Source: Apostichopus japonicus
Lineage: Eukaryota; Echinodermata; Holothuroidea; Aspidochirotida; Stichopodidae
Direction: 5' to 3'
Assembly (NCBI RefSeq): GCF_037975245.1
Contig: NC_092571.1
Location: forward strand, 10,363,917-10,427,916
DNA: 64,000 bases
Below, piece by piece: positions 3,999 to 34,930 of the stretch. Under the pieces are notes generated by a model, which was not told the DNA's origin, ran no database searches, and saw only the letters and a list, made by a program, of their open reading frames with translations. Position 1 is the first letter of the stretch. Each line of letters starts with the position of its first letter. The position numbers and the translations under genes were made by a program.

Positions 3999-4157
3999 CT
4001 GCTACTAATAGCTGATTCATATCTTCTGTGGTTGTCTCTCTCATAGCCTCAACTGCCTCTGATATCCAGCCGTCTGTTTCATGCTCCAATTCTTTCATGT
4101 CCTCCGAGCTCAATATGCTACACAAGATGTCTTCGCTTACCTCAGAGTCATCCAGTT
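3999..4157 (-). CDS. ZCWPW1: ZCWPW1 exon 11 (source of the downstream exon-end array)
   Basis: 159 bases, phase 1 to phase 1. Very acidic: ELDDSEVSEDILCSILSSED, then a helical part ending NQLLVAG. Acceptor aattgacag, donor gcag/gtacta. Its last 50 or so bases and donor are repeated four more times downstream. Confidence 0.85.
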
Positions 4158-7100
4158 CTGTCAATTTGTGAAAGAGTATCAATGAAAAGCATAGCAGGGA
4201 GGGTTGTAGATACTGTATATTGCATGTGATCAGCCATGAAAAGTTATTGATGATTGAACTACCCTGAGTTAAAACTCATTTCCTTTTGTGTTTTCTAAAG
4301 ACTTTCAACTCTAGCCTCTCTTGAGATAAGCTTGCAGATTCATTCCCTAGAGACTTTTGGAGACTAACGTAGTGGCTCTTTGATCATTTACTGGTGGACA
4401 CGATGAAAGCAAGGAAAACATTCACAGAGAGTTCCCGATGGTCATAGCTGTTTATTATATATTGTGTCCGAGTAATCTATGGAATAGAGACAGGGGATCA
4501 ACTTTGATCAGTCTGAGTGAATTGTTGATTTTATGATCCTTTATAAACCAAACTTGGAGGCGATGCTCAATGGTCAAGTTTGGCAGTCAGAACTGTCAGT
4601 GTAAGCAATTAATGTATCTAACAAAAGTGTTTGGATTAGATAAGAAGGATCAATTGGAGAATATTTTGATGGTCACAAAAGACATAACTTTCCTCCTTAT
4701 TTGTTGAAAATAGTCAAGTGACCAATGCATTATTTTATTGTTACTTGTATTAGTCTGGAGGTCAGTTGGAGAGATTATTGATGACCCTGGTACAGGTCAC
4801 TCGGTCAGCCTTATACATTCAAATTGTACATTACTACCTGCACAAAGATTGCTATCAACTGTTATGTACAATATCTCACGTACACCCTCAGATCCCATTT
4901 CCTGTTTGTCACAACTTTGAATCCCCAGAATTTGAAAGGAAAACCTTACACTTACCAATCTTGAATTATATTTATTCACCCATTTTTGTAATGTTTTGGA
5001 GTATCATTGATAATTCTACAGCTATAGTTATCTAGCAAAAGGCAGCATATGGTTACGATGTACTTTGGCAAAAACTTTTCAATACTAAGGTGTAAAACTT
5101 CAACCAAATGAAACTATTATGTCAATTTGAAACATATCATATGCAAGAATTTCTAATGGTTACTCCTGCAAGGGAACATTTCACCATAACTTCCATATAT
5201 GGCTAATGTTTTACTTGTTTAACCAAGAATCACAGTAAATATCCTTGAAGGGAACCTTTCTAAGATAACAGACCAACTGATATCCTGTGTTTATAACCTA
5301 AACTGTAAACACAGTGTTTAGATCAGGGTTGTTTAGGGAGTGATATATTTGTCAAGCTTACAAAAGATTTCTAGTTCACTTCCTTTCACTTTGATAGTTC
5401 CTGTTCCTACTAAAGTGGTTGTTAAGTATCATTTAAATAAGAAAAGAATAAAGCAACAAGTAAACTGAGCTATTAAACTGAGTTGAAGATCAAACATTAA
5501 ACACTGATATAAATCAATCACATCTGATTTGAATACACATTTTAAGTTCACATAAACTAGGACTGTCTTTGGCCAAAGGTTTCTAACTCTGAAAGGTGAA
5601 AGCTGACTGATTTTTATTGATTGGTTAATCAAACCGATAGGTACTTATCAACTATGCTCAATACTTCTGCTTGTCACACTTCCACAGCAACTCAGTGGAG
5701 TTTTGATCAGTTCAGTGTGAAGCAGTGAAAGAGGGTCTGAATAGTAAGCTTAGCTACACTGTATAGATTGGATTGATATATTAGGTTGATCAGTTCAGTG
5801 TGAAGCAGTGTAAGAGGGTCTGAATAGTAAGCTTAGCTATAGATTAGATTGATATATTGGGTTGATCAGTTCAGTGTGAAGCAGTGTAAGAGGATCTGAA
5901 TGGTATGCTATAGATTAGATTGATGTATTACAGTTAAGTGTGAAGCAGTGTAAGAGATTGATATATTAGGCTGTGAACTAATGATGGATGAGATATCCAA
6001 TGACAATGTTAGTGCAATCACCATTCTAGCTTCTTCTCTATATTAGCGTAACAGTTCACTCAATACATTATAACATTTCTGGCTGCTGTGTTTGATATGG
6101 TTTCCAGAACAATACTTCATTTATATAGGTCAAAGCGGGGCATATACAGTACATGTTCTCTGTCTTACAATAACAGAGCTATAAATAATGTGGAGAATAA
6201 CCCAAATAAATAAAACAAAAAAAAATGTACCTTGCAAAGAACAATCTCTACTCTGTTTTGTCCAAACTCCTTTAAAGGTCTTGCTGAAGCCAAACGTGTC
6301 TATTCTTTCCTGAAAGAGACATCCAAAACAGCATTATATTGTAACAAATCAATTGGACAATACCTGAATATGACTAAAAATGTATTACAGGCAGTAGGCA
6401 TAAACTAGACAATTCACCTGATCCTTTGATCTTTGCAGGGAATAATGATTTAACATCAAATAGTAGAATGCTATGAAAATGGTCAAATTGCTACACATGA
6501 GAATGGTCAATATTTATTTGTGTAGTGATCTGATAATTTCATACTGCATTCTGGTAAAGGATGAAAAGCTGATCATAACTCATAACTTTATTTTTTTTTT
6601 CATCAGAAAAACAAAAAATATAGACCTAAACACTATTTAAGTTATTTACTGTATTGGCAAACAAAAACAGTGCAACTATTTTTTTCTTCTTAAAACAGTG
6701 AAACTGACTACAACAATCTCACAAGTTATTGACAGGTTGATTTGAAAGATGACTAGATATTAAATACATATTTGTATAAGGTTACAGACACTGTTGAGTG
6801 ATGAGAGAATCAAGGCCAGCAATATGTAAGTGTTACTTTTAAGGTTCTTTAGTGTTTTTAAACGGCAACAGTGCAACAATACAACAGACTATCAAACATA
6901 GTTTATCAGTATATAAGATAGGATAAATAGTTTGATGGGAATGCTGATGCAAGCTCAGGGAATGATGTAGAAATCACTTTTTGTGCAGCAGTTTTGAGGT
7001 CTATGAACTTTTTCTGATATAATATCATAGTTATTAATAATGAAACTCTGACAATTATAGAACTGCCTGTCGTTTACTTATTGCAAGTAAATTGATCTTT

Positions 7101-10100
7101 GGTTTGGTAACATCTTAGTCTATTTAATGATTGTTGCCTTTTGAGGAAAAGCATGAAACCTTGTTAAGTTTAACATATAAAGCATTTTATTCAAACCATT
7201 TCACATTCAATGTTTTTCACAACATTAATACTGTACACAGTGTTCCTTAGATGAAGGCTATGGATAGGGTCAGAAATCTTAATCACAAAATTGGAATTTA
7301 ACCAGTGTAGGAACAGATAACAATACACCAGCATATTGCATGACAGTATTGGTTTATGGTCAACATTACTTTAACAAAACTGAGTAATAATAAAGGATCC
7401 AGGTGAAATGGTCACAACTGGAGTGTCACATGATACTTCTGGTGTTTCCCTGTCCAGCCATTTATAAGGTAATGGCTAGCACTCCATACACACAGGCTGG
7501 GTGGTTAGTAATGGCTAGCACTCCATACACACAGGCTGGGTGGTTAGTAATGGCTAGCACTCCATACACACAGGCTGGGTGGTTAGTAATGGCTAGCACT
7601 CCATACACACAGGCTGGGTGGTTAGTAATGGCTAGCACTCCATACACACAGGCTGGGTGGTTAGTAAGGACTAGCACTCCATACACACAGGCCTGGTGGT
7701 AAGTAATGGCTAGCACTCTATATACACAGGCTGGGTGGTTAGTAATGGCTTGCACTCCATACACACATGATGGGTGGTTAGTAATGGCTAGAACTCCATA
7801 CACACAGGGCTGGGAGGCTAGTATTGGCTAGCACTCTATATACACAGGCTCAGTGGTTAGTATGGCTTGCACTCCATACACACAGACTGGGTGGTTAGTA
7901 ATTGCTAGCACTCTATACACACAGGCTGTGTGGTTAGTAATGGCTAGCACTCCATACACACAGGCTGGGTGGTTAGTAATGGCTAGCACTCTATATACAC
8001 AGGCTAAGTGGTTAGTAATGGCTAGCACTCCATACATACAGGCTGGGTGGTTAGTAATGGCTAGCACTCCATACACACAGGCTGCATGGGTGGTTAGTAA
8101 TGGCTAGCACTCTATATACACAGGCTCAGTGGTTAGTAATGGCTAGCACTCTATACACACAGGCTGGGTGGTTAGTAATGGCTAGCACTCTATATACACA
8201 GGCTAAGTGGTTAGTAATGGCTAGCACTCCATACATACAGGCTGGGTGGTTAGTAATGGCGAGCACTCTATACACACAGGCTGGGTGGTTAGTAATGGCT
8301 AGCACTCCATACACACGGGCTGGGTGGTTACCATTTATCTTACTGTGTGTGCTACTACATGTAATTCATCAATGAACTGACCCAGGTCTATCTATAGACT
8401 TTTGCTTTACAAATGGAATGCTTATCTCCCTAGACTAGGGTGCTTAATTATATGCTGGAGTGCAAAATGGAAGAAAACATTGGTTATGTAACAACCAAGT
8501 GTCATACAAAAACTAGGAACTGGTATTGTTACACCAAGTGTGTGTAATTAAAAAAAAATTAATTGAAATAAGAGCAGAAATCTGCATTCAACTAAAAATG
8601 AGAAGAAAACAAATACCTTAATTGACACTTTCAAAGCATCTAGTGCTTGCTTCTTGGCTGGAAGTATCGATTTGGAGTAGTCTTTCTTCTTATAAAATAA
8701 CTGCCACAAAAGAAGAAATAAGTTGGCTTTCAGTGATGAATTATATCATACATTTAACTACAGAACATTCAACATTGTGTATGACACTTCCAACTTTAAA
8801 ATAAACAATGCATACAAAACATATATGAAAACATAGCAGTACTTCAAGTAGGATTTGAATAAACTTGTGACAAAATTCTAGGTTTAATTACTTTTACTTG
8901 TTGAATATAATGACATGTCCTAGTTTGACAACCTCCATTCCCATCTTTCCACTTTACAAGGAAACTTAAGCAATAAAGTGCCATTACTCACATTATTATA
9001 ATCTGTATAATTGCTAGCTTTGCAGATGTCAAAATGTTGTGACAAACAAACCTGTAAACCTTTAAATTGATACCTTATCGATTCCCTTTGGTGATATTAA
9101 CTGTGTGCATGCATACCTGCTGGCACAAAGACTCACACTGAAGGACTAAAATTAAAGAATTTCATTTAAAAAAAAAAAAAATACAGAAAGTTTCCACACT
9201 TTATCAAGTTTGTGTGCTACAATTAAATTTTTAAATGTTGGTTGAACATTGTAACCCTTAATATGAACTGTTATTAACCTTTTAATGCTACTGGTTGTTG
9301 TAACCCTTAATATGAACTGCTATTAACATTTTAATGCTACTAGTACCACTAAAGCTGGCTTATATAATCATGTCTAAAAGATAGGTAGCTTTCCCTTTAA
9401 AACTAAAGAGAAGCTGCCAGTGTTAAAGCTGTTCACTTTGCATCTTTCACCTAATTTTATCCTACTTTGACACCTGCTGAACAATGGCCACCATGTCAGC
9501 TCTTTTGGGAGCCATTCCTCTTACATCTCTTACATCTTCAGTTTTGAACCCCAAATTGAATTTCTAACATCCAGATAAACTCTGCATCAATTCTGCACAA
9601 TACTAAGCAATGGCAACTGTGTATAACTCCATGGTAACCAACATTTGCCACTTTAGAACTCAAGGAGTCATGTTCCATCCAAAGTTGATCCTTTGTGATA
9701 AAATATTCTGACGAATTATACCACTGAAATAATGACATTTATAAAATCAGGTGTCATAACTTCCATAGTGTGGAAATGGTAACAGATGACAAAATGTTCA
9801 CATTTAATTGAAAATCTGCTTGTTTCATGCCAACTTGACCCTATCTTAATTCATTAATGATGTTTGCACATTTCTTGGGAATATAAATAACCACTAAAAA
9901 TTTGGCAGAAAACATCCCTGCAAAACAAAATGAATGAATGATCCCAAATTATTTGCAAAACTCACAGATCCTGGAGGTTTCCCAGGTTCTTCAAACTTCT
10001 TAACCGAGGCTGCACAAACCCAGGAACGGCTCACAACCTCGTCCAGGAATACACAATGATAGTGAGTCTACAGGAGATGATATCATGGTTAAAGATAACT

Positions 10101-13100
10101 CTAAGCTATATAATAGTAGTTCCATATGTCCCAACTCAATAAACTTGACAAATTTATTTTTCCAAATCATGCTTGTGATTCTTTGAGGTTAATAAACACA
10201 TATCTATTCATGACCACATAGATTCCAAATTTCTTCACGATGGAAGAAAAGCTGACCATCAAAAGCAACATTCAAATCTATCACCTGGCTTGCTGAATTT
10301 GTTCTTCATAACAAATATCTCAAATGCTGTATTTATAAAAAAATGCTGTAATTAATAATAATTATGTAAAACTTTTGTTGAAGATTCTTTCACAATTGTT
10401 TCCTCAATTGGTTTTTTAATAGTTCACAACTTTACTGGGTTGCATCAAATGAAACTGGGGTGTGATCCTTGGTTACATAATATGCAAAGTACCCTCTATA
10501 CCATGGATTGCTAACAACTAAGGAACGAGAGCTGGTTGATGGAGCACAGGACTTGTACAGTTGCATACCTGCGTTTACCAATTTCAATGAAGTTCTTACC
10601 AGTATTTTATTTGCATTTCTAAATTTATTCTAAAAGTTGGTAACAGACTCCAAAAGAAATGTTCTTGTTAACAGAAAAGAAGAGGAAAGGCCTTTGCTTA
10701 CCACATCTGAGTCTATTCCATTGTGGAACATAAATTCACCACGGTCAGGGTCAGTCTCTACCATGGCAGGCCACCATGGAAATCCCTGCATCTTAGCCCA
10801 CACGATGGAGCCTTCTGTGAACTTGTTGTGAATGAATTCCAATTGTGAGTAGTCTTCTTCTAGTTTGTCACATGAATTAAAATTTTCATCTATTAAACAA
10901 GAAAGAAAATGAAACAGTTCCTTACACACTGCAGACGAGCAACAGAATAGTCAATGTAATGAGCAAATTCATGCAAACTTTATATTGCAGAAGGCCCTGG
11001 AGTCATAACTTTTGGTTGAAATATTGTCTTATGCAAAAGAGAACCAGAGAATCAATTTTATTGAGAGAAACTGGAATGATTGATCATCCATTCACAAATT
11101 TTATACTGCTCTATTTTATTTTGATATCATATCTATTTTGTGCTAATGTACTGCCAAAAGAAGGAAAAGAAAAATTAAACACATAAGAAATGGGTATACC
11201 CATTTCTTCTTTGTTTAATTTTCTTACCATCCTGTGACTAATGCAAAGCTGTTGCAGAATGATCAGCCAAATAAGCCATTACTAGCATACACATTGTTGG
11301 CTTTTAGTGTTTACAGCGTATACAATATATGTAAAGGTAATGTGTTCGGTGCAGTCATCACTATGAATATATCAGTAGAGTAGATTCACTACCTTATATG
11401 TGCAATTAGTATGCACTTGAACAACATCTCAGAGGCAAATGGATCACTCCATGAGGTTGGGGTGCAAAGTGTGGCATCAATGTCAAAGTTTCAAAATGAT
11501 TTTCTCTCTCATTTGAATGTGTTCTTTGTATAACCAAGATAGATGAGAACATACAATGTGTTACATAGCTGTATCTACATCATATATGTTCTTACATGCA
11601 TATAAAATGAAACAAACAAGCTCAAATACCCATTTAACAAGTTAAATTATAATTTCAAGCTCTTATGTAGTTTTAAAACAGCATGAACTACATTCTCTAT
11701 CTAGCAAAAGTATCTTGTGCATTCATGAAGTTGTAACTGATGACACAATGTTCATGTAAATTCATGTTACATTAAAGAACAGCAGATTTCCCTTAAAATT
11801 GTGTAGGTAAAAGGAATGGCTTGTAACTTGCAATTCGGAAGAGGATTCATGAAATTTAACTTCAGATGAAGAAGCTTGTTTTTTGAACACCTTTCATTCA
11901 GTGTTATTTCCATCTTTATGACTTACCAGGATGCATGATGCATGTCCACTGCTCTGGTATTTTAGCGGGGTCTGTCTCGGATTTAAGAAAGCGCCATTTC
12001 TTGCATTGCATGTTTTCACATTGTACCCAGACACCATCTTCTGTTATATCACGATCTTGAAACTTTCCTCTTTCCTTTAGCTTCCTTTTCTGGGAAGGTT
12101 TCTTCGATACCTTAGAAGAATCTAATCATAGGCAACAGAAGAATTAAATCAAACAATTTTCTGTCAATCTCCTCAAATTACTTTAATATGTCAATAAATA
12201 ATGTTGACAGCATTTTTCTAGAGAGTATCACTTCCATTTCACTGCTCACTTTAGCTTTTGTGGAATATCAACCACACAAATTTTAAGAGAAGAACCACGT
12301 AGTAATTGAATAACCTTCTCAATACACTACACACTTTGTACCTACACATAATACCAAGATCATGGATATGTCATGGTTTAAATAGTATGACCATTTCTAG
12401 CCTAAAATCTGGCTGCCTACTGTATGACTGTATTCTGTGATTTATCTCTCCTTTAGTCCAGCTCTCTGAATCAATATAAAATCTTCTTCAAGGCAGTATG
12501 TATATACACAATGTTTAGAGCAAATGAGAGAACTGCATAAATTCTCGAAAAAAAAAAGGAAAGGAAGAAAAAAAAAAAAAAAAATCCCTTAAGTTGTCAT
12601 TTTATATGTCAACAATAAGACCCACTGTATGAGAATTCAACAGAGCACAACCAAACCTGATTGCATTTTTGCTTCTCTCAGTCTTGATTTCTAGAGTTGA
12701 ATTCCCCGGAATATTTTACCATGACATTTGCACTTCATTTGTTTCAAATCCATTTTTGGTAATTTCAAACAGCAGATATTACATTCCTCTTCCACAAATC
12801 AAATAGAAATAAACTTCTGAAATATTACAAAGTTTTACATTAATTTTAATAACTTTTATGAAATATAAAAATTATTTTCAAGGTTTTATATGCTCTCAGT
12901 CACCATGCTGTAGAAGAGTATTGATATGTTTAAACATAAAAAAAAAAAAAAATTTAAAAAGGTTCAATTAATACTGTGTCCATTTCTTCTATTATTGCTT
13001 CTTTCATAGCAAATGAATTAATATTCCTTTTTACCTGCTGAACCAAACAATTCCCTGCTTGGATTCCTTGGACATTCTTTAGAGTGAGCTTTCTTTCTTT

Positions 13101-16100
13101 TCAATTTCTTCTTTTGAGGAGGGTTTGGTGTTATCTCCACAGAATCTTCCATAATTTCATCCAGAGGAGTACAATGCAAGTCATCTTCAAGACTGTCAAA
13201 CAATAAATAATGAAAAGAAGTTAAAAATATTAAAAAACACATATTTAGCAGTACTTGAGATCAGCATGTAAAGTGATAAACTCTCTGAGATGTCAAAAAC
13301 AAATAACATAACTTAGGTATGGCTTGCCAAAGGGAATGTGTGGGTTCAAATCCCAGCTTCATACCATGTTCAGTTGCTTGGCTTCAAAATGTTGAAATTA
13401 AATTCATTTTATTCGGAATTGCACATTGTGCAAAATGTGCAATATTTTCAATGTCATACGTTAACTTTGTCACAAGACGTTCTGGGATAGCCCCCTAAGG
13501 TATTTTATTGATTGTTTGTGCATGTTGAGTTAATTGGATGCTAATTATTTAGCCATGGTTTTGTGCATCCTTAAGCATTGCATAATAATGTATTGTTAAC
13601 AGAGTATTGGTCTTCGGCATAGTCACATGCTCTTTCCTTTCTGTCTCAGGCTTGACCCGAACACAAGCAAGACCATAAGTTGCTCTTGTTCAATTGTACA
13701 AAGGTAAGGCCAAATTTTAGTTGAAAAGAAAGGAAACCAGTATATCCACCAATTTCCACCGTCATTTGAGATGACACTGACTCATTTCCTTATGAATTAA
13801 ATCGGGTGTCTTTTGGACCTTTATAGATGGCAAAAGAGGCAAGGAAAATACAAGCTGAACGAGAAAGAAAAAGAATGTGAAACTAAGGCCAAAAGCCCAC
13901 GCTCATATAGAGACATGCTAGTAAGATAAATGAGAATATTTTTGTACTTAATCGCAATGAAGTGAACACGTTGAAAGAACCTTCAATGAAACAGAACTTA
14001 AACTAAAACCAAAAGGAAGAAAGAATATTGAGACCAAGTGGAGACGAGGCTGAATGAAATAAGAAACCATATGCAGAAGATATGAAATAAATGTAACAAA
14101 CTTAAGAGAATATATAGAAAGCTGCTTCTATCTAACTGTTATTAATTTTTGTTTTGTAGTTTTGTTTCCTTGCACCAATTTCTCTGCAGTATATGTATAT
14201 ATTTATTATATTCAAATAGGGAAAACATTCTATAAGCAATGCGCTTCTTTTTTCTCCTTTTCTATGCATTTGTATAGCTTAAATATTGTATATCAAGTTA
14301 CATGATGAATGTTTTTTTTTCTTTTTTCTTTGTACCAGCTGTCTCTCTAGATTGTATTGTATATCAAAATATTCGTTTATACTTTGTTAAACATTCATGT
14401 GCTGTACACAATTGCTGGAAATAAATTTTTGTCATTGTTGTTAATTTGGCTGTTACTATATATTGCACATTGCAACTCATATACACTCTCTGTCCTTCTT
14501 TACGCCCTTGTCAACTACTCTGAGAAGAATCCATGGCAAACTTCACCATCAACAGGTTTTGTTTATCTTTTAAATTCAAGTCATTAGTATAAAACCTTGG
14601 GAAAACTTACAATTAACTGTGCGAAGGGATGCTGTTTTATTGTAATAAGGTATGATAAAGTGCCTTAACCAGAATTAAATAGTGATTTTAATTGCAACAG
14701 TAAAACATAAGAGTCTGAAGACAAGGGTGGGAAACATGTTTGCTGTGTACAGCAAAAGAGCGAGTCTTTTAAAAAGAAAATTTTTTGTGTGTCACTTCAA
14801 ACTACACCTATAACAGACATCATACAGTACTGTAATGCAAAATGTATTGGTCAAAATAGGGTGAATAAATTTCAGAAAATTTCATCAATGAAACAAGCGA
14901 TGCAGTTGGAGCAATGTTTCATTTTAAGTGGCTCATTACTTATAGAGTCACTCTACATTATAAATTTATATCACAAAACAAGTAACTTGCATCCACAAAA
15001 GCTATTTTAATGAAGGACCAATAAAAGAATGCGGATAGGAGGTTGGCTAATGAAGCTATTTCCAATATGTCTGGTTTGGATGAAAGAGTTCTAAGAATGA
15101 TAAAGTTATACTGCATACAACGATGCTGCGTCACTCAGATCCCCCGCTTGCTGCTCCTCATCCAATTCTTCTTTGTTTGGATCTTCTGGTCTAAGTAAGA
15201 AAACAATGTTACAAAAATATCAATACAAAGTTTGCAAAAGCAAAATATCATACAATATTAATAACAAATATGATATGAAACAAATTTTAAATACATATTA
15301 CTGTAACTCCAGCCTATAATGAACTTTCACACAACCTGTTCTATTTGGTCATGCATTCCTTGATGAATGGTAGCTCTCAAAATTCAGCAGATAGTTGTAC
15401 AGGTTGGGGCAATATCTGATGAGAGGGGTAATGGTCACTAGAGACACTGAGACCCAGGATCAACTAGCAGATACAGTACCATCATGCAAGAGCCACTTCA
15501 CACACAGTTGGGCACCCTTTTTCGACGGCTACTCTATTATGAATATTCAGATATAAGTTATCGTAGGGATAATCAAAGGTGTCGCCTTCTTGATAGCCAT
15601 TTTGGGGCTAAAACTTAACAAGAAGATTCCCTTAACAATAATGATGTTTTTGCATGTCTGGAAAGAAAGGACATCACGTTAGGCATCTAATGGCTGACCA
15701 TCTAAGAAAAGACAGTAAGCTTGAACACTGAAGGAGGAAAACCTGTTCAAGGAAGCAAGATAAGAAGAGTCCCTCAACAATAAGGCTGAACTTTGCAACT
15801 GGAAAGAAAGGACAACATGTGAGGAATCTAATATCTGACCATCTACAGTAAGTATCTAATAAAAGAGAGTTGGCTTTAACACTGCAGGAGGGAGACCTGT
15901 TCAAGGTAGCAAGACAAGAAACACATCAAACTGGAGACAAGGCGGCAGCGGCAATAGCAAATGTCTACGATCACTGTGGACCAACAATTGGCACCTACTG
16001 TAGTGCTGAATGGTGCCAAACAAGGTTCTTCCAACTGGTAGAAGTGGATCTTTGAGTCATCACCAGAGATTGTTGCATCATAATTAAATGCCATTCACCT

Positions 16101-21375: not shown

Positions 21376-22205
21376 AAACACTACTGTATTGAACGATGTT
21401 TTCAGCAGTTGTGGGACGTATTCATAATACTTTACATTTGCTGGTTAAGAATTGGACAAGTGAAAATTTATAAAAAGATATACTGCATCTAGTATTTTGT
21501 AATAACGTTATTATGAGGCTTGTTTATTATTTAAGGATAACAGAAAATTTTTAAATCCATCTCAAAAATTTCTGTGAAAGCAACTACTAGAACGGCAACA
21601 CGCGAAAAGATCCTGCGTCTGCGCACTGAAGATGTGATGTAGCCAAATACTTGTACTAAGTAAAACACATGCACACAATGTCATCAAGTTCTACGCATGC
21701 ACTACATGCTGATATACTGTACGTACCTCACCACACTAAATACGTACGCTGGCTGATGCCGAACGTATCAACATTGTTATATTCTCGACCGTCGCCTTCG
21801 AGAGAAGAACGCAAGCTAGTTAGTCGTGATGAGAAGACTTTAAAGACCGCTTGTTAAGGATAGAAATAACCTAAGTTACACTGAAAGATATTTGGGTGCT
21901 AGGAATCGTGAGATTCTGACTGTTTATTCACAGAACGTCAGGAAAAGGAAGGTTTTGCAGTCGTGGTCGTGAAACGAGGTCTTCCATTGTGCATTACAGT
22001 TGGGGACACGAACCTCCATATTACAACCGAAACGAGACTGCGCATGCATGTTACACTTGCCTTCCACTTGCCCTCTGTATGCAAATGAGTTCAGTGCAAT
22101 CTTCATGTGTTTGTAAACAAAATGGGAACACTCGTTGCAGCGGTAGTGTGTCTTCACGACCCTGGATGCTGAGCTAGAAGTAGTGGTACCGATGGAAGAG
22201 TGAAG
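21323..22205. promoter_or_regulatory. divergent promoter region between ZCWPW1 and MEPCE
   Basis: Between the presumed first (non-coding) ZCWPW1 exon and the MEPCE start codon there are fewer than 900 bases and no recognised repeat. The sequence is less AT-rich and holds NRF1-like words (ctgcgcactg near 21617, ctgcgcatgcatg near 22037), common in bidirectional promoters. Transcription starts are not visible. Confidence 0.6.
22192..22203 (+). promoter_or_regulatory. three-codon upstream ORF before MEPCE start
   Basis: atggaagagtga (Met-Glu-Glu-stop) ends two bases before the MEPCE ATG at 22206. The upstream ATG has G at +4 but C at -3, so leaky scanning is likely. It could dampen translation if the transcript includes it. 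Confidence 0.6.
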
Positions 22206-23594
22206 ATGTCGGCAGCTGAAATCATTCGAGAGGCTCATCAAGGAGATGCCTGCAAATTGGCATCAAAAACTTTGGGTGAAAAGGTACATTTGCAGACAAG
22301 CTCTGATATATTTGCCCAGCCTTCAGACTACAAAAAGGATGGCTTTGGATGTGTCTCCAATAGTTCAAAAGTTTCGCAAAAAGAGTTGTCAACAATTGAA
22401 AACGTTGAAACAGCTAATAATAGTAATACCTCTGGACCAGAGCTGAAAGATGGTGGGATAACTCCATCATCTTCATTTCATGGAAAACGAAAACTTTCGC
22501 TTTCAGTGGAGAACAATAATAAGAAAATTCCCAAGAAGAGAAGAAAAACTGTAGAAAAAAGCAATGTAAGATCTGTAAAAAAGTTTCTGTTAGGCGGGAA
22601 CCGCACAGACCCATTGAACTTGAACAGCTTAGTTGATGAAGAAGTATCAAAGATTGCCAATGCCCAGACACCAATATCTTCCCCATTGCCAGAGAGAAAC
22701 AAGGATCCAGACCCGGTTATTGTTCCTCAGGATCTGCGTGATCCATTGAAGTTAAACAGTGACACAGATGAAAGTAATCCCAGTCTCACAAAAGTGGTAG
22801 TTCGCAAGAGAAAGAGGCGCAATTCCTTTCGTAACCCCACAGCAGACGATACATCATTTGAAGAGGATACCAAGTCGGTACAAAGAAACTCGTTGGAGAA
22901 AGAGACTTTAACGATCGACGTTCGGCCCCACCAAGCAAAGCATCCTATTGTCGATAAAATTGTATCACCTGTCATTCCAGAAGCGTGTAGAAAGCGCAAG
23001 CACAAACGAAAGTCAGATCCTTCACCGACTGTTTCAAAAGTTTTACTAACGGATGAGGAGGGAAAGCCTTATGCACCAGTGAAAGCAAAGGACAAGAAAA
23101 ATGATCATAAGAGCCCAGAAAAAGCCAGAGGGTCATGCAGTGAGGAAGTCTCACTCCCCAAGTTTAGGGACAAAGGAGAACAATACCAATATGGTAATTA
23201 TGTGGGTTACTACGGATACAGAAATGCAAACCAGAAAGATGTACGTCTAACATACTTCAGACAAAATTGGTTTGAGGGCAAAACTTGCCTTGACATTGGC
23301 TGTAATACAGGTCATGTGACCTTGTATGTTGCCAAGACTTTTCAACCAACAAAAATTGTTGGAATGGATATAGATGCTAAACTTATTAACTTAGCCAGGA
23401 AAAGTGTGCGTCAGTGTTTAGAAGACATGTTGAAGTCAAAGGGTGGCTTTGGTGGTGGGAAGTTCCCAGTTTCTATGAAGAAATGTTATGGTGCTCTACC
23501 AGCATTGCAAACAGTGCCTCAGTTACAAGAAGGAAACAGCAGCTCTGCAAAAAAGACCCAAGATCTCTTCCCAGGAAATGTTTTGTTTCGTTGT
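22206..23594 (+). CDS. MEPCE: MEPCE exon 1: disordered N-terminus and SAM-binding motif
   Basis: 1389 bases, 463 codons, ending in phase 0 at cgttgt/gtaagt. Residues 127-189 (FLLGGN...DPLNLNSL...DEEVS...SSPLP...DPLKLNS...DTDE) closely follow a segment I recall from the N-terminal region of human MEPCE, an unusual degree of conservation for a disordered tail. Several Lys/Arg clusters ([22 protein letters not shown]) are candidate nuclear signals. Confidence 0.95.
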
Positions 23595-26500
23595 GTAAGT
23601 ACAGCAGTGAAGTGATTTAAGATTCTCTGCAAATACCTTGCTATTTTATGAAATGGAGTCACTATGACTTGCTAATACTGTAAGCTTTCCAAGTTTCAAA
23701 CGGTAAATACGAGTAGGAGGATAGTGTTAAAATTGTAAACAGTGTATTAGGTTTGGTATTAAACTTGCATTGCCATGTAGGTTGATTGCACATCACTGCT
23801 TAGGCCTACTGTAAATGCAAAATTTATACAGAGTCAATCTTAAACTGTTATTACACTCAGTCTCAGACCACCATGGGACCTCTAAAACCTGGCTTGGAAG
23901 AAACAGAACTTTAGGTGCAATCATGTTTGGTTTATTAAGCAGATTTTCAATCCTCTGAAAGTGTAGGCTGTCCAAAAAGTGTTGGCCATGCTACAGCATG
24001 GCCAAACTTCTAGCAAGTTTGTAAACTTGTGGGTTTACTGTTGAAGAGTGAGCATTCATAATCTTTTATAATTTTTGATTCCTTGCTGATGGAGATGGTA
24101 CAGTATATGTGTGGGTACAGTATTTGTGAGGGTGTGTCGCCTTGGCTTGCAAACACTATATAACTCAAAAGAGTACATGGTGCTTCATTTTTAAACTTGA
24201 TATGTGGATAAAGCTTAGTAAGTAGACTGACCTTATCACTTTCCATGAAGGTCATTGGAGGTCACCATTTGAGGTAAACAAAGGGTAAAACTCAGAGAAA
24301 CTTGTAAAACGGGGAAAACTTCAAAACAAACCATTGGTTAACTTCATACCTGGCATGTGGATGTACCTTTGTCAGAAGAACAACCCATTTTGTTTATCTT
24401 GAGGTTCAAGGTCATGAGAGATCAGAGTCTGAAATGTGTATTTAAACACAACACTGAGTGTTTACTTTGGATGAATTCATGTAGACCCACCATATTGATT
24501 TCACTGAACCTATAGTTTTTGTGGGAGGTCAAGCGTCATCTGCAGTTATCAGCATTTGGTCAAAGTCTAAAAATTCTGAAAGTTCAAGTTATTCCAGTGT
24601 AAAGGTAAGGTGAGCTTCTGTTGTTACTAGCTGCATTCAAAGGTCATTGGAAGTCAAACTTGGAAATACAGTGTTAGTTATATTAAATGTTCTTGAATAA
24701 TTTTGTACTTTAGGAAGCATTAGTACAGCTAATTGGCTTTTTGGGTAACTAATTTTGAAAAAGACAAAAGGTTCTAGATGTGCATGCTAAACTGATCAAA
24801 CTTGTGCACGAAGCAAGGTACAGTACTGAAGATTTTAACACAATAATGTAAAGAGCTGATAAACTTATGTCTGTTATGTGATTATTTGAACTTAGATTGA
24901 ATTCTCTTTTAATAAAGTTACAGTAGATTTTCCTTCTATGTTTGGTAGACGTCAAATCGGGTATTAATTTGGGACAAAGAGAGTGTCATTGTGTAGATGA
25001 GACATCTCTGGCATAGTTTGATTAAACAATGGTTTTGTCCAGACCACAGTTCTGCATGTTATTGTTTCTAAGTGTATGGCAGATTTAATGACAGATGTAC
25101 TACTGTATTGTTAATTATGTATACCAAACATTAATTTATCAATTCATTGTCATCACAATGAAGGCTGTCAACACTGACCTCTTACAGTGGATTGTGAATG
25201 TGAGATCATTCATGATCTGGCCATGTGGACAGATTTATTAAAAAACTACACCATATGACGTAGACATTACCCATTGAGGCCACATTTATCTTTATAGTTT
25301 AAAAATTAGTCTGTACATAGCATATTAAAATTAATTTGCTTAAATTTGTACGGTGCAAGTTGCTGATGCAATATATTTCTCAACTGCAGTGTGATTTATG
25401 TGAAAGTTATCATATTATTGTACATGGCTATGAAAAAAGCTTGTGACTTGCATTCAATATTAGAAGTAGGATAACCCCTATTTCAATACTCCTCAGGCTG
25501 TATGCTGAGGTTGTGTATTTAAACCATTATCTTGTATCAGTTGTACTGGTAGTCAATAAAAATAATTGTAACCTGGGACAGTGCACAAGAATCATAATTT
25601 ACGTTCTGATCAATAGCCTTACAGTATTTCCATTAGACTATAATACTTATATTACAAGTGTCTCATGATCAAATTTTCAAACATTTTGATGCACATTCAA
25701 ATTGACACTATATCCAGTTTCCTTATTATGATGATGTGACAGTTTGATATGTAGCACTGTCTTTGATTTTGACATCAGACTGGGCTGGTTATAAGGTTAA
25801 TGTAACTATATGGCCTGCGCTTGACTTATACTTAGCTAAAGATGTATTCAAACTGAACGGAAGTGTCTAAAATTGTTTCAGGAAATGGTATAGAAAGGTT
25901 TGCAGGGTATTTGTCATCAACTCTGTAATTACAGTATTTTCTACGTGCTCTGGCCATTGTAGTACAAAGTTACTTACATTGGTGTAGGGGATGAACTGCA
26001 ACATTGAGACTATGAATCCATTAGCATGTTAAAGGCATTGAAGACTCGCCCCAAACCGGGTGCCGCCATCTGAAAAAGTTAACTTCCTGTTGCTTGCAAG
26101 TAACGTTTTGTTCGTGTCGCTACAAAATGCAGACAGTAATGAAACGTGATACCTTGTTATCTTTAGCTGGACCTGAGATGTCCATCGCTGTATAGTTTAT
26201 ACACTGTGCTGTGGGTATTGACGGCAGCTGTATGTACTGACTGCACACTAGTGTCTAATTACCGACGGTAGCAAGCTGTGTGTGTATTTTCTGGGATGGT
26301 GGTGTCTAACACTTCTGTTACACCTCAATCGATACTAGGTCAGATTACCGGCATTTCGTTAGACGTTTCTTTTTGCGCGAGTCTTCACACCCTTTAATAC
26401 TCTGGGATCATTATGAAGTTTGTGTCTAAAAATCTACTTACAGGTCACTGAAGTTCCATTGTAAGGTCACTTCAAGAGGCAATATTGATTATTGACACAT

Positions 26501-29500
26501 TATTTTAAATGTTTGTTGATGTTCTTGTAATCTCTGTGAGCCATTTGCCACCTACTATTATGTGGTAATGTGGTTACGGAGGATGTTAAAAAGTCAATTC
26601 TTAATGAGTTATGTATTTGGTAAGGCAAAGTTTTTAGATACCGTTGGTTAATGTGCTCGGTGCATGTCTTACATGCACTTTGCTCAGTTTGCTGGAGTAA
26701 ATCTATATATATATATATATAGTAGGGAATTATAAATCTATTACACAACAACTTTCTGTTCAGTGGAAACAATGTTCTATTTTTGAGGCTGATGCAGGCC
26801 AAAAAATTATGCTTTTCCTTCCATCCAGTTCAAAGGTTGTAAATATAATCTCTCTGTAAAGATTATTGATTTAATTCCAAAATACAGTTCATGCATGAAT
26901 ACATTTGAAAGGATCCTGCTCCATAAAGGGTGGAAATGAAAGGTCATGTCCTGTAATAGGTATTATTGTAAAACCTTGTGAACAAGGTATGTCAAGGAAA
27001 GATCATAGCCAAATATTGGTGGATATGTAAATATGTACCCCATATTGAGTATACATACCAGCTACATGTGCTTCTGATGGAACTCGTGTAAGGGTCAACA
27101 TAGGTCAAAATAAGGAAACCTTGTCAACAGATTTATAGATTTCAAGAACAGAAAATTGGATGGATCTCACTCATAATATATGGGAAACTATTCAAACAAG
27201 TCAAAGGTCATATGAGTTATAGGTATTCCGTGGTGAGATGCACTAGCTTGTTAACATGAGCTCACAAGAAAGGCTATCCTGTATTTGACTCAGTTTTCCC
27301 CAAAAGTAAAATAATACGGTTAATGTTCGTTGGAGGTCAAAATTGTACCAAAAGTCACTAAAATCACTGAAAAGAAGTTGTCAGGGACTTAGTGTTTAAG
27401 ATTGTGAGAGGTACTATAAGTTATAGTTTCCACACTCTGGTAAATAACAAATTATTGTTATGGTCACTTCTTCTCACTCCATTGAATATTTAGTGGAAAG
27501 AAATGGTTATATAATCAACTGATTATTAGACAATTTACAAGATGCATAACATCTTGCTGAAAAGTTGTCATAAATAAAGAATATAATAGCATTTTAAGTA
27601 CATTGCAAGTAATGCTGATTAATGCAGGTACATTGTGAACATTCTGCTGTTTAAATGGTCATGATATTTTCAAATACTGTAAGATCTGACAGTTGACAAA
27701 TTTCAAAAGATAGACCAGAGGGCAGAGGCATACCCAATGTGAGCTTGAAGCAAAGAGTTGTGATGTCACATATGTGAGCACTTTATGCCTTATATGAATA
27801 ATATATACACACACATTTACTGGTATTTTGGTAAGTTGAAAGCCCCATCCCATCATCTTAGGTCATAGCAACAAGGTGATAAAGGAAGGAAGGCAGAATA
27901 TTTTATTGTCATTGTGCAACAATGATGTCCCGGTTTGATTCAAGTTCACTTGTCATACAAACTATGACAACTTCATTTATCATCATGAGCTTAGATTATG
28001 TCTCTCTTTTATCAATTAAAAATGTAATATAAAAGAGCCACGTGGTACCCTCGATGTGTTATCGCCAGATGGACTTGGCACGGTGTAATCCTGAAAAGGA
28101 CAAGCTTAATACTAGTCTGTCTTTTGATATCTGATCACTTGGTGGCATACGAACTTTCACCAATTGATACTGTAGTACAAAATTTATTTTGATGTTCCTG
28201 GTACTATTGTACTTTTTTCTGTACATGTACTGTACTAGAAGCTACTGGTGTCAACTTTTAAGAGAAGCAGTGTATTCTGAAATGTTTGCCCCTTTTTTTT
28301 CTCTGCAGGGTAACTTTGTTCTTAGCAAAGACGAGCTTCTGAAAACTCAGAAGGAAGAGTATGAGACAATACTGTGTCTCAGCATCACAAAGTGGATCCA
28401 CCTGAACTGGGGTGATGATGGCTTGAAACGTTTTTTCCGTCGTATATTTCTAGCCCTGAAACCAGGAGGTGTATTCATACTGGAACCACAGGCTTGGCCT
28501 TCATATGCAAAGAAGAAGAAAATGACAGTAAGTCTCCTCTCTCATTGCACTTGGAAGGCTGCTACAGGGGATTGGTAGTGTTGTGGGGGTGGGGATGGTG
28601 GGGGGGGAGGGAGGGTGGGGGATGAGAGATGAGAGGGTGTGTGTGGTTCAGGGATGACTTAAAAGAAGGGTTATTGAAAGGCAATGGTCATTTGAGAAAA
28701 TAAGTCTATAAATACTGTAGCAAAGTAACATTAAAACACATAACATGCTTAGCAGTGTACTGTACTGTCAGACACTGCTGCTGAAGTGATTGTGTTTTTA
28801 ACTTTCACCGTCATTGTAACTAAGTGCTAGACATCACCTTATCAGGCGCGGATCCAGAGGGGGGGTCCAGGGGGTCCGGACCCCCCTGCTCTTGGCCAAA
28901 AAAAAAAAAAAAAAAGGAGAAAAAAAAAGAGAGAGAAAAAAATAATTTCATTAAATGCCAATTTTAAACATGTAGGACGTCAGAAGGGCGGTTATCCTTA
29001 CAAGTCAGCCAGGTGTGTCTTTTCCGTCAAATGAACTATAGTGTGCATGCGTGCTACACGTGCCAAAAATGCCTAAAATTCTCAATTTTCAGACCGAAAA
29101 GTTTCAAAATTGAGGTGGTGTTCGAGAATTTCACAATGGATAGAGGGAATCCCACTCCCCTTAGACCCTAGGATCACTGGAGGCCAAACCCCTCACCTTT
29201 CCAGAATCCTGGATCCGGCCCTGCATCAAACAGTGGTGACGGAACGGGAGGGGGAATGGGGGCTAAAGGCATTATGATTTTTGTATCATCTCAACTCATC
29301 AGATATGTATTACCATATTTCATAGATTGTTTTTTTCTCATCAATTGAGAAATTGCAGACATGAGATCCATATTTTCAGGCTAGGTACATGCAGCTTAGA
29401 ATACTCGGGAAGTGACGTTTCCGGCCATCTGGGGGGTTTGTAAAGCCAAAAATTTTCTGGTACGCTCCGCGCCAACCGATGGTGGCGCTCCGCTTAGAAA

Positions 29501-32500
29501 GTCTTACGTTCAGGCGCGGCTGGACCAGTCAGACCCCCCCCTGTCACAAATCCTGCATCCGCCCCTACTTATGTTGAAAAATGAACTGCATAAGTAACAT
29601 CTGTTTAACCAGTGAAAAATCAAGCACAATGTGTTGAACTAGTTTGAAAAAAACTTGAGTGTCAAACATTGCCATTGCACTGCTCTGCAAATGAGATTTG
29701 TCTGGTCAAAAATTCCATACCAATTACGTGGACACTCCACAATGAAGACAATGTCATTAGAATAGGTGCTAAATGTTGGTTAGTTTCCACTGATAAAACT
29801 AGTTCAACATAATGGGAATGAGTGAACATGATTGAATCCAAGACAAAATTTGGCACCCTTCATAATATTTCGTACATTATTTGACTGTACGTAGAAGTAC
29901 AAGGGTGCACTTAACATTTGGAAAGAACAACAGGGCTCTAAGAAGATTGGGATAAAATTAGGTAACATAAAGGTACCATGGTAACAAACAGTGACTGCTC
30001 TGAGTCTTGTCACTGTATTGTGAGGAGAAGACTCCATGGGAAGATTTATACTAAGGAAAGGAAGTAATACATAAATCAAACTTTGCACAAGAACAAGACC
30101 TTTCACCAGTAGGAGTAGCTGATTTATTTTGACTGAAAAAATGTGTATGGTTTAATGGTTAATTAGCATGAAAATTAAATTACTTGGGTGCACACAAACT
30201 GTGTTTATGATATGAGCTAACTGTAGCAAGTTCAAATTTTGTACATATTTTTTTCTAGCGTTTCTGAGAAATGTATGTACACATTCACTGTTTATATAAT
30301 CCTTTGACAATTGAGAATCAGGTGGATTGTGACTTAATCTTCTAAGAGGGCTTTATAGTAATATAAACTTATTTTATTGCTACTTTTGTGGGTGCTGTGA
30401 CTTAGTAAACTAACCAGTTAAGACCATATCTAGTTATAATTGGAATCTCTATGTGATTGTGAGGTCATAAGTTCATCACCATGGGGGTTAATGTGAATCA
30501 GTCTATTGTTATACTTGGTACAAGATGAAACAAACTCAGGAATCAGGACCACATCTAATGTATGCTGTGGCCTAGGGCAATGAATTGCTTATATAACTGA
30601 GGCATTATTCCTGGAAGGGTAAGAAAGGCAGTCCTGAATAGTGCAAAGACTACCCTCACAACTTAGACAGATGAGGGCACAGATAGAAAAACAAAAGTTG
30701 TTTAGGTATAGTGAAGTTTAAGGTAGCATACGCCCATTTAAAGCCCCATTGACTTACACACTAAATCACAAAAGTAATGTGGTCTCTAAGTCTAGATAGA
30801 AGTTTTCACTAGCTAAACGCACCCATCACCGGATAGCTGACAAGTTGGCCTTTCATGGCACCATCAATTTTCCATACCATGACCGCGCAGATTTGTTGCT
30901 ATCCGAGCTGGAAGTTTTCGTCACTTGTAAACAAACCTCTTCACTCAGTAGTAAACAATTTTCCTACGCTGCTCCTGGGAGGCCTAAAGGGGTCTAAAAT
31001 TGCCTCAATTGACCCAATTTTCTCACCACATGTACTTCCATTCATGCTCTTTAACATGCACGCCATAAAAAAATAGATCAGGATTGATAACAGGTCAAAA
31101 AAGATGTTCTCCTGCTGCTCTTTGGCACTTTTCCTGAAGGAGAACAATCGAGCGGATGGATATAGACTCTAATAGGAGTATGCCACCTTGGGGCAATTCT
31201 GGTGCACCATGTGGAAAGCTTTGTATGGGAGGTCTGTGGAGATCATTGGGTCAAATTGTTGAACCTAACATGTTAGTACCCTGGATAGGCCAACTAGAGT
31301 TCAAAGTCTTTCAGTTTCTCAATATGATACTACAAAATATATGTCTTTTCTTGTTACATTGTGAATTTTCTCAGACCTTGAGATTCAATGTGTACATTTG
31401 TTATGTTGAAATACCCCCAAAGGTACTGAGTTGGTGAAGTGGGAGAGGAATAGTTTATTTCTTACCATAGTACCTGGTTTAAATACAATAAGTAATACTT
31501 AACATGATGCTGCATGGTATGAAATTATGAATGGCTGTGCCAAATGCTGAAAAACCTAAAGAAAATGCCTGTAGATATACTTGTATGTACAGTCTTGCAA
31601 TGGACGATTTGAGCCAACGATAACAAATTTTATCTAGGAAACTTGTTATAGTAGGTCTACAGTACATCCATGCATATTAGGTTTGACTACTTAAATATTT
31701 ACTTCATCAAAAATTACAAATATGGGAGATCAAATCAAATCAAACAAGAAAATATTGTAACCTTTTCTGTAAAACATCAGCTAAAGACTAATGTGAACCT
31801 GTTGGGAGGACAATTGTGCAAAGGAGTAAGAATTAAACTCAAGAATGTGATCAGAGTACTGTATGTGTAAAGCAGTTAGCAAGTTTTCATTGAAGGTATT
31901 CTGCATTTTAAATTAAAGCCTATAGAAGCCGAGAAAACAAACATAATTACAAAATCACAAGAAATGTAAAATTACAAGATACAGTAGCATCAGGGTGGGG
32001 AAGGGGAGGGGATAGGGGACCGGACAGGGGCGAGTGTAAATCCAGTTGAATATGAGTGTGCCTGAAAACAGTACAGTGAGCAGTGAGCACTGTCGTTATG
32101 TACAGTAGTCAACATAATGCATTTGCTGCCAGTTTTGTGACAAACCTGAATAAGGTTATGATTTGTAGGTAGTTGTGTCATTGTGCTAAACTAACAACCA
32201 TGACCCCTTCGTACATGGACTAACAGCTCAATGTTATAGCTAAGATCATTAATCAAACAGTGTGGAATTTTTGAGGTTTGGAGCATGTCCATATACAGTA
32301 GATCACCAAATGGTTGAAAAAGTGAAAATATCTGTGTCCAGACTATTTAAGGAACAAACTGAGTTTGCAAGAGTTTGCAAGACCTTGTAGATTTAGTTGT
32401 TTGTTAATTTATTTTAGCTATGATACCTGTCCCTAAGGGCAAATTGCAGGTTTGGCTGAGTATCTACAGTAATTCATCAAGATAGATAACGATCTGTTTC

Positions 32501-34930
32501 AAGCTTTTGTTTCTCCACCTTTGCAACAACTTGTTAGATCTCAGTGAATCTGTCATGTTTGCCACTGTTTTTTATTAGCTGCTTCTGTTGTGTAGTATCT
32601 TGTCTGTTTCTAATTTTAAGTTCTAATGGTGAATATTATCAGAATTAGCAATATTCCCACTCAGTCCCAGAAGACTTTGTTTGTTGCATAATAGGATAAT
32701 GGATCAACTTTACCTTTGATTATAATGTATTAGAAATGTGATATATTTGCCTGGATTGTTTGTGGCGCTAAATGACACTTTCATACTCTACTATAATTTG
32801 TTGTTTTGTCTTTGTGAAAAGATGGAGATACTTTCTTTGTGGCAGGCAGAGAATTAACAGCTGGCTTTAAAGGTTGCCAATGGGAATCCATAAACTTGCA
32901 GCAAACAAGCTGAACTATACTAGTAATTTCTGTTCAGTCTGGTGAATGGAGCTGCTTTTACTGAAGTCAGTCAAGTGATATGCTGATAGGTCGTATTATT
33001 AAAACTAGTCAATACAAACAATTAACAGTGATTGTCAATGTTTCCTTACTATGTGGCGTGTTCAGTCAAGTGATATAGGCTGATAGGTTGTACAGTATCA
33101 TTAAAACTAGTCAATAAAAACACTTAACATGGATTGTCAATGTATCCTTTCTCTGTGGTGTGTTCGGTCAAGTGATATAAGCTGATAGGTTGTATTATTA
33201 AAACTAGTCAATACAAAGAGTTAACAGTGATTGTCAATGTATCCTTTCTCTGTGGTGTGTTCGGTCAAGGGATAAATATAGGCTGATAGGTCGTATTATT
33301 AAAACTAGTCAGTACAAACAGTTTACAGGGATTGTCAATGCATCCTTCCCCTGGTGAGTTCGGTCAAGTGAAAAAAATAGGTTGATAGGTCGTATCATTA
33401 AAACTAGTCAATACAAACAGTTAACAGGGATTGTCAATGTATCCTTCTTCAGTGGTGTGTTCGGTCAAGTGAAAAAAATAGGCTGATACATCGTATCATT
33501 AAAACTAGTCAATACAAACAGTTAACAGGGATTGTCAATGTATCCTTCCTCTGTGGTGAGTCCCAGTCAAGTGCATCTCGCTTCATTACACAATTCTTCT
33601 TCTGCTTTCAGGAAACCACCTACAGAAACTTTTACAAGATCGAATTCAAGCCCCACGACTTCAAGCGGTTTCTTCTCAAAGATGTTGGTTTCTCCACTTG
33701 TGAAGTAATTGGGACACCAGTGAACCAGTCAAAAGGTATCAAATTACTGTTGTAAATGGTTTTGTCTTTATAGGGCAGAGAAGGCGGGTTTAATCCCTCA
33801 ATTGGAGCTTTGAACGTTTATATCTCTTTCTTTAATCTGACCTTCTTTGTGACTGGCAAGAGTCCAGTTTGGTAAATGTTAATACTACATCGAATTGTAG
33901 TATGTTGTCCTAGGTTGTTGTTCAAAATATTGCCAAAAGAATACAGGCCGGTATTTGGATGTCGTCCTCAAATGAGTTGGTGCAGTTATTAAAAAAACAT
34001 CTTGAATTTTCAAAATCTACACGGAAGATCTAATAGACGTAGTATTTCAAACTTTGCTGAATGCTGATAAAATGTACTGATCATTTTCATGGTACACACA
34101 CCAGTGTCAGCTGAATGATGAGAGCTGATCTTCACAAACAAAATAGGTAAAGGCTTGTAAGGAGTGAAAGGGTGAAACAAACCAGCGCTCAGTTCATCCA
34201 TGCTAAATGCTAACGCTCACGTACCTCTATTATCCAAGAGTTGACTCTATGTTCAATCGACCTCACGTCAGTCACCGCACAGCATAACCTTACTATCTAC
34301 TATCAAACTTTTAAGTTATGCTTTGTTGAAATTGATGACATTGCACAATCCTTTGTTGTAGCAAGGTTACAGACTGGAGGATAAATGTTGGGGAAATCTT
34401 CATTCTCAGGGCATTGAGAGCAGTTAATGTGATTTACTGTTCCATCATCCTTCAAAGTGATAATATAAAGTAATATTCACTATGTAGAAACTCACGCCAA
34501 AGCAATGTTGTAATAGATATCAGCGACAGGAAGCATGTTGTTATTATTGCATTACTTATCCTTGTGGTACATATAAATTTCTGATATTCTTCCTTAAAAG
34601 TTTTATGCTGTTATTGATATGAATTATGAATATGATATGAATTGTTATGAATTATGTGGTACATCTCGTACTTGCTATTTAGACATGTCGACCCTTTATG
34701 TTAACTTTATTTTTCTTGCAGGCTTTAGGAGACAGCTGTTACTGTTTAAGAAGCTGAACCGAAGACCAGCAGATGCTCAGATTGCTCAGAGTATAGAGTT
34801 AAATCATAAGGACTCCTCAAGCCAATCTTCCTTGGAAAGTAGTAACCCTCCAGCTAGCTTACACTGTCTAGAACATAAGGAAGCTACAAAATGGAAAGAC
34901 CGACCTAAAGAGGACAAAACCAATCTGTGA
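22206..34930 (+). CDS. MEPCE: MEPCE, 7SK snRNA 5'-gamma-phosphate methyltransferase
   Basis: Caps 7SK snRNA by methylating its 5' gamma phosphate from S-adenosylmethionine and stays bound in the 7SK RNP that holds P-TEFb in the nucleus. Four coding exons, all GT/AG and in phase: 22206-23594, 28309-28527, 33612-33735, 34722-34930; 646 aa against about 689 in human. The ATG at 22206 has A at -3; the frame reaches only six bases further up, to a GTG. Residues 1-320 are disordered and basic, with two DPL-x-LNS motifs. The Bin3-type catalytic domain begins at [11 protein letters not shown] (329-339), then the SAM-binding motif [10 protein letters not shown] (361-370), and [15 protein letters not shown] (485-499). 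Exon 4 ends with a low-complexity tail. Introns hold only repeats. Confidence 0.96.
23595..28308 (+). other. MEPCE intron 1
   Basis: No exon. Carries the TTAA-flanked MITE at 26029-26397, an (at)n tract at 26703-26720, and many scattered aggtca words (for example near 24244, 24412, 24644, 26941, 27102, 27199 and 27333) in poorly conserved, possibly decayed repeat units. Confidence 0.7.
26029..26397 (+). mobile_element. TTAA-flanked MITE, copy 1
   Basis: ttaa then aggcattgaagactcgccc at the left; gcgcgagtcttcacaccc then tttaa at the right. The ends are imperfect inverted repeats. TTAA duplication suggests piggyBac-type transposition. No coding capacity. Defines the arbitrary plus orientation. 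Confidence 0.88.
28309..28527 (+). CDS. MEPCE: MEPCE exon 2: catalytic core
   Basis: 73 codons, phase 0 on both sides. [19 protein letters not shown] then [20 protein letters not shown] and [17 protein letters not shown], all hallmark Bin3/MEPCE blocks. Acceptor tctctgcag, donor aca/gtaagt. Confidence 0.96.
28843..29223. mobile_element. DNA transposon remnant with GGATCC-type inverted ends
   Basis: Left end caggcgcggatccag, right end ctggatccggccctg. A G-run and C-run pair (28858-28886) follows the left end. Flanks caccttat and catcaaac do not match, so the target duplication is lost or the ends are misjudged. In MEPCE intron 2. Confidence 0.65.
29350..29575 (-). mobile_element. copy of the GCGGAGCGCC-containing repeat family
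   Basis: Plus-strand order: cagacatgagatccatattt, cgggaagtg-cgtttccggcc, then gtacgctccgcgccaaccga tggtggcgctccgctta, ending in a C-run and ctgcatccgcccct. The same blocks recur, in reverse, around 50930-51380 and 51560-51720. Confidence 0.7.
30720..31189. mobile_element. short transposon with AAGGTAGCATAC inverted ends
   Basis: Left end aaggtagcatacgccc, right end ggagtatgccacctt. A related element with similar ends lies at 50352-50646. No target duplication seen, no coding capacity. In MEPCE intron 2. Confidence 0.65.
32967..33575. repeat. about six tandem units of about 100 bp next to MEPCE exon 3
   Basis: Units share ggtcaagtgatataggctga, then attaaaactagtcaatacaa and cagggattgtcaatgtatcc. 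Unit starts near 32970, 33066, 33168, 33264, 33364, 33464 with a last partial unit at 33567. The array ends about 40 bases before the exon 3 acceptor. Confidence 0.9.
33612..33735 (+). CDS. MEPCE: MEPCE exon 3
   Basis: 124 bases, phase 0 to phase 1: [20 protein letters not shown], then [18 protein letters not shown]. The acceptor sits only about 40 bases after the end of a 100-bp tandem array in the intron. Confidence 0.95.
33736..34721 (+). other. MEPCE intron 3
   Basis: Unique AT-rich sequence; nothing recognised except the donor (aaag/gtatca) and acceptor (ttcttgcag). Confidence 0.7.
34722..34930 (+). CDS. MEPCE: MEPCE exon 4 and stop
   Basis: Completes the domain with [15 protein letters not shown], then a polar tail of about 50 residues absent from the short human C-terminus as I recall it. 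Stop TGA at 34928-34930. Polyadenylation signals aataaa at 35190 and 35200. Confidence 0.93.

Follow-up and report, generated by a model that had tools for sequence, protein, structure and literature searches.

ZCWPW1 and ZCWPW2 of vertebrates each read two histone marks, co-occur with PRDM9, and belong to a family of H3K4me3/H3K36me3 readers, while MEPCE is the 7SK RNA methylphosphate capping enzyme. In the sea cucumber Apostichopus japonicus, we found that a ZCWPW gene and a MEPCE gene are adjacent, lie on opposite strands, and have their 5′ ends facing each other, within a stretch of 64,000 bases of contig NC_092571.1 (hereafter C11; 10.364 to 10.428 Mb) that we call the window and number from 1 to 64000. 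The same two gene families are adjacent in human (7q22.1) and cattle (BTA25). A shared transcription start site (TSS) region has been described for human ZCWPW1 and MEPCE (PMC10312909), and tables give joint ZCWPW1/MEPCE labels to chromosome 7 positions 100,026,415 and 100,027,339 (PMC6119822) and 100,027,122 (PMC12551033). For the cattle locus, one table row lists NYAP1, TSC22D4, SPACDR, PPP1R35, MEPCE, and ZCWPW1 (PMC12837429), in what we assume to be map order.

Conserved divergently paired genes form a known class: 1,399 such pairs have been reported in human, with 101 kept over 46 vertebrates and with 66 conserved in fly, 50 in worm, and 18 in yeast (PMC12672016). The sea cucumber locus resembles them in having neighbours on opposite strands around a CpG-rich gap, but the class is defined by an inter-TSS distance below 1 kb, whereas here the known distance is that between the start codons. 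Our preferred interpretation, held with reasonable but not high confidence, is that this is an inherited divergent pair with the arrangement of human ZCWPW1/MEPCE, in which both genes most likely start in one CpG-rich segment. It would probably add one more member to the divergent pairs with deep conservation, and another such pair in an echinoderm is to be expected now and then. An invertebrate ZCWPW-MEPCE pair was not found in print in literature searches that looked into a minority of the papers retrieved; judged by title, none of the papers listed as naming both genes deals with an invertebrate, and a head-to-head remark in one paper that mentions ZCWPW1 concerns other genes.

The two genes and their families

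The coding part of the ZCWPW gene occupies 3934..18258 on the minus strand and was modelled as a single open frame of 413 amino acids over 10 exons. In the direction of transcription, these are 18207-18258, 16575-16725, 15119-15190, and 13035-13192, followed by the exon with the zf-CW domain (11927-12121), the two with the PWWP domain (10702-10889 and 9966-10067), and 8617-8700, 6231-6309, and 3999-4157. All of them are followed by GT, and all are preceded by AG except the first, which begins at the ATG. The Pfam matches (zf-CW, 52.8 bits, and then PWWP, 44.0 bits) fall in one open gene, and this order of the two domains within one protein is what it shares with ZCWPW1 and ZCWPW2. The 3′ end at 3999 is uncertain, as the last exon may continue to a stop at 3934. 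The last ZCWPW exon has its 3′ half in a 132-base repeat array (2143-2444 and 3866-4049) of five copies, the exon itself included, and a reverse-transcriptase frame (2444-3622; RVT_1, 78.5 bits) lies between the copies. Two further tandem arrays are found at 1-1799 (63-base unit, 28.6 copies, 97% matches) and 7469-8330 (39-base unit, 22 copies, 89% matches).

The MEPCE gene (22206..34930, plus strand) was modelled with four exons (22206-23594, 28309-28527, 33612-33735, and 34722-34930) that encode 646 amino acids with Bin3 and methyltransferase domains, the Bin3 domain being full at 144.3 bits in Pfam. In the Protein Data Bank (PDB), it matches entry 5una best, a 7SK snRNA methylphosphate capping enzyme (274.6 bits), while the RNA 5′-monophosphate methyltransferase 6l8u, which we take to be BCDIN3D, reaches only 33.6 bits. 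Judged from these matches, orthology to MEPCE is clear, and the protein is closer to MEPCE than to BCDIN3D. Three stop-to-stop frames of 93 to 112 amino acids overlap the gap between the genes, none with a Pfam match above the cut-off, and two of the three also overlap elements resembling miniature inverted-repeat transposable elements (MITEs). Given the gene models, their domains, and these frames, the divergent pair described by the first-pass annotation is real, with nothing recognisable between its members.

ZCWPW is a better name for this gene than the ZCWPW1 of that annotation, which holds at the level of the family but may not hold in its strict sense. The CW domain is about as similar to that of ZCWPW2 (45.3 bits) as to that of ZCWPW1 (42.5 bits), and the split between these paralogues, of which human and cattle ZCWPW1 is one, has been placed in the vertebrate ancestor (PMC7237205). 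Profile searches of the genome gave five zf-CW and seven PWWP matches, which are co-located only in two of each, both on C11: the gene described here and a second copy of the locus, whose Bin3 and zf-CW matches are at 7.006 and 6.991 Mb. Thus, in contrast to the two genes of vertebrates, our searches found a single ZCWPW-type gene, the second copy apart, with the limit that matches arise exon by exon, so that a weak second gene could escape. Because the CW scores are alike and the co-location of the two domains is confined to C11, the gene is probably pro-orthologous to both ZCWPW1 and ZCWPW2, representing the undivided ancestral type, and human ZCWPW1, not ZCWPW2, would occupy the ancestral place. 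PRDM9 was sought through its SSXRD domain only, which gave no match in this genome, but the control genomes were equally silent.

A CpG-rich segment in the gap

The start codons of ZCWPW (18258) and MEPCE (22206) are separated by 3,947 bases (18259..22205). Within this gap, the segment 21001..22205, beside MEPCE, has the highest CpG observed/expected ratios (o/e) of the window. In 400-base windows, the ratio is 1.25 at both 21401-21800 and 21501-21900, and the three highest values of the 64 kb (1.19 to 1.25) belong to windows starting at 21401-21601, compared with a median of 0.32 and a 95th percentile of 0.86; near the ZCWPW coding start (18001-18800), the values are only 0.00 to 0.24. With overlapping 800-base windows, 9 of the top 12 fall in 21001-22200. 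Smaller CpG peaks in the gap, at about 18.8 to 19.2 and 19.6 to 20.2 kb, coincide with the two MITE-like elements. Between the two copies of the locus, 1188 of the 1213 aligned bases of 21001-22215 are identical. These observations are most simply read as one shared promoter segment next to MEPCE, which is also a likely reading, and this part of the first-pass annotation's proposal of shared promoter control remains plausible. Other searches gave little: no inverted or direct repeats were listed in 20900-22400, no Rfam match reached the gathering scores in the window, and a scan for promoters of the bacterial type is uninformative for an animal.

For ZCWPW to use such a promoter, its transcripts would need to begin far upstream of the coding sequence. 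The ZCWPW ATG is preceded at 9 bases by an in-frame TAA and, by our reading of the sequence, at about 50 bases by an acceptor-like site, which makes a spliced noncoding 5′ leader plausible. The candidate stretch for the start of the noncoding first exon is 21322..22205 (minus strand), where donor-like sites were found with their first intron bases at 21321, 21726, 21731, and, just beyond, 21267 (scores of 4.6, 4.5, 4.1, and 1.9, respectively, with hand-entered donor-site weights, on a scale in which the ten model ZCWPW donors range from −2.0 to 6.6). The statement in the first-pass annotation that fewer than 900 bases separate the presumed first exon of ZCWPW from the MEPCE start codon could not be confirmed: a distance of 885 bases (22206 − 21321) needs a candidate noncoding exon ending at 21321, to which the sites at 21726 and 21731 are rivals of similar score, with 21267 lower.

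A second copy of the locus

The second copy of the locus (C11:6.970-7.046 Mb) lies about 3.39 Mb from the window and is collinear with it, with insertions and deletions, over the 70 kb compared, including a galactosyltransferase gene that is 99% identical in amino acids. Of the stretches of at least 300 bases without a match, seven are in the window, the longest measuring 1.7 kb, and eleven are in the second copy, where the longest measures 2.3 kb. The copies differ by 2.9% substitutions over 63,414 aligned bases, and the divergence is patchy, ranging from 0 to 10.7% with a median of 2.2% in 132 windows of 500 bases. The extent of the copy was traced with five 3-kb probes. The probe at 6.60 Mb has its partner at 9.99 Mb (identity of about 100% along 3 kb) and that at 6.85 Mb at 10.24 Mb (93 to 95%, in two pieces), while those at 7.15 and 7.40 Mb hit young repeats and are uninformative. 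One of these repeats (C11:7150001-7153000), which is presumably a mobile element, has 38 further near-full-length copies at 95 to 96% identity among the 40 candidates scored out of 435. The last probe, at 8.70 Mb, matches best at 5.48 Mb (2.75 kb at 100%, with an offset of 3.216 Mb compared with 3.386 to 3.391 Mb for the others), but a repeat that recurs at about 100% on other contigs makes up about 2.08 kb of this match, and the pairing rests on about 0.67 kb. The doubled length is therefore firm for at least about 0.45 Mb, while 1.5 Mb is suggested, mostly by repeat sequence. No N was counted in nine 10-kb loci, and the join between the copies was not located.

All 10 ZCWPW exons also read open in the second copy, which lacks one codon, and the aligned codons of ZCWPW and MEPCE are free of stops in both. 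Nonsynonymous (dN) and synonymous (dS) divergence between the copies are 0.017 and 0.054 for ZCWPW, and 0.0027 and 0.023 for MEPCE; within the first 432 ZCWPW coding bases, there are 11 nonsynonymous and 5 synonymous differences. Divergence over the ZCWPW body (8001-18500) is 2.0 to 10.7% (median of 6.8% in 20 windows of 500 bases), and over the MEPCE region (22001-35000) it is 0 to 8.0% (median of 1.4%, 26 windows). We did not build on the idea of a hyperdivergent ZCWPW haplotype, given that 60501-64000 is equally divergent (median of 7.0%, seven windows).

The published assembly of this species, probably the one used here, is described as made by hifiasm with default parameters and ALLHiC, and the terms “purge”, “haplotig”, and “heterozyg-” are absent from the main text of its description (PMC10344927). 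The long collinear copy, its patchy, allele-like divergence, and the stop-free codons favour a retained haplotype, that is, two alleles kept by the assembler, as the most likely nature of the second copy, while a true recent duplication may be the alternative. Consequently, we rejected the second copy as independent support for the pair. The duplicated locus calls for caution with gene counts from this assembly.

The comparison of the copies is nevertheless informative about spacing. The gap between the start codons measures 3,947 bases in the window but only 3,428 in its second copy. Of this difference of 519 bases, 508 are due to a single transposon-like insertion. This MITE-like insertion (18911..19418) has 502 bases flanked by AGTATA on both sides, with an empty site in the second copy; when its end strings were compared, 13-base inverted repeats with one mismatch were found, although a repeat search with a minimum length of 11 listed no inverted pair there. 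A second MITE-like element within the gap (19770..20174) has perfect 16-base terminal inverted repeats. Since the gap varies in this way, a fixed spacing between ZCWPW and MEPCE is not supported, and the regulatory constraint on their separation that had been suggested for the locus was not borne out.

Probable common descent and its alternatives

The question of descent was approached with this genome and the published statements on human and cattle. The earlier description of the human genes as divergent neighbours agrees with the papers cited above as far as adjacency and a shared TSS region are concerned, while their opposite strands are presumed. Beyond the pair, we found no conserved order. 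PPP1R35, the sole gene tested for wider synteny with human 7q22.1 and a member of the cattle row, is represented by a partial match (58 of 140 profile positions) that shares the contig at a distance of 7.9 Mb, and the right-hand neighbours found here, unlike in human and cattle, are the galactosyltransferase gene and an ABC gene; the coding starts are also 3.9 kb apart here. The positions of these other genes, which differ from the human order, would fit an adjacency that arose independently, by chance, in echinoderms and mammals, but our arithmetic speaks strongly against such an origin. Among the 19,828 genes of the published assembly (PMC10344927), the chance that one named gene is the divergent neighbour of MEPCE is about 2.5e-5, or about 6e-4 given chromosome membership, and the effect of the first-pass annotation having picked this pair out of a handful of genes is below 10-fold. 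Chance adjacency is thus improbable, we regard independent origin in the two lineages as very unlikely, and the pair most likely goes back to common descent.

If the pair was inherited, the arrangement that we favour is one in which both genes would start in the CpG-rich segment at about 21.0 to 22.2 kb, with MEPCE coding from 22206 and ZCWPW transcripts starting on the opposite side with a noncoding first exon, whose splicing to the coding exon at 18258 would span about 3 kb. The first ZCWPW intron would have been lengthened by transposon-like insertions that left the pair unbroken, and adjacency has probably been kept by overlapping promoters, as a break would harm one of the genes, and not by a need for co-expression. 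Several points count against this arrangement. The donor-like sites upstream of ZCWPW are ordinary in strength, and the CpG peak is an indication only because other windows come close (1.18 at 53101; 1.14 at 3401, partly in the reverse-transcriptase frame; and 1.11 at 49801) and peaks of this kind are not confined to promoters. TGCGCATGC (22039..22047), which lies some 160 bases from where MEPCE begins coding, resembles an NRF1 half-site, and it is the sole match in the 64 kb, yet at least one match appears in 17 of 100 shuffles, which makes it weak. Nor did we find enrichment of NRF1-like sites, as TGCGCA occurs four times in the window compared with a shuffle mean of 5.0; that two of the four lie in the gap was noticed after the fact. 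Loss and re-pairing may also have produced the same picture, with one invertebrate genome compared. Finally, the expression of ZCWPW1 in mouse and human speaks against simple co-regulation, as discussed below.

It is possible, though we would not expect it, that the inherited pair has two separate promoters some 3 to 4 kb apart, in which case ZCWPW would start a short way before its first coding exon and the adjacency would have persisted passively. The distance between the start codons is well above the 1-kb inter-TSS rule, the exon in the gap is only a candidate, and the gap tolerates insertions, all of which fits this alternative. However, the low CpG ratios at 18001-18800 leave no CpG-rich stretch at the ZCWPW start, and the acceptor-like site before its ATG also speaks against this alternative. 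Less credible still, in our opinion, is the view put forward in the first-pass annotation that selection holds the pair for the co-regulation of a meiotic reader and a 7SK/snRNA capping enzyme. It draws on the divergent adjacency here and the adjacency in human and cattle, but the spacing varies between the copies, and MEPCE is a broadly expressed housekeeping gene. Zcwpw1 mRNA, in contrast, is reported to be exclusive to the testis in mouse and human (PMC7237205). With such different expression, the two genes could share a promoter and still not be co-regulated, and this part of the proposal of shared promoter control remains unsupported. We also consider doubtful, though somewhat less so, a more far-reaching version of the shared promoter, in which one promoter would have been shared since the deuterostome ancestor, ZCWPW1 would stand at the ancestral site with ZCWPW2 as a moved copy, and germ-line selection would act on the coupling to a gene related to RNA polymerase II pausing.

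If common descent is true, the pair predates the split between echinoderms and chordates, the site of ZCWPW1 is the ancestral one, and gene order could be used to trace the origin of this PRDM9-linked reader. Furthermore, the locus would offer a naturally occurring example in which a gene whose expression is exclusive to the testis in mouse and human apparently has its start next to a housekeeping promoter.

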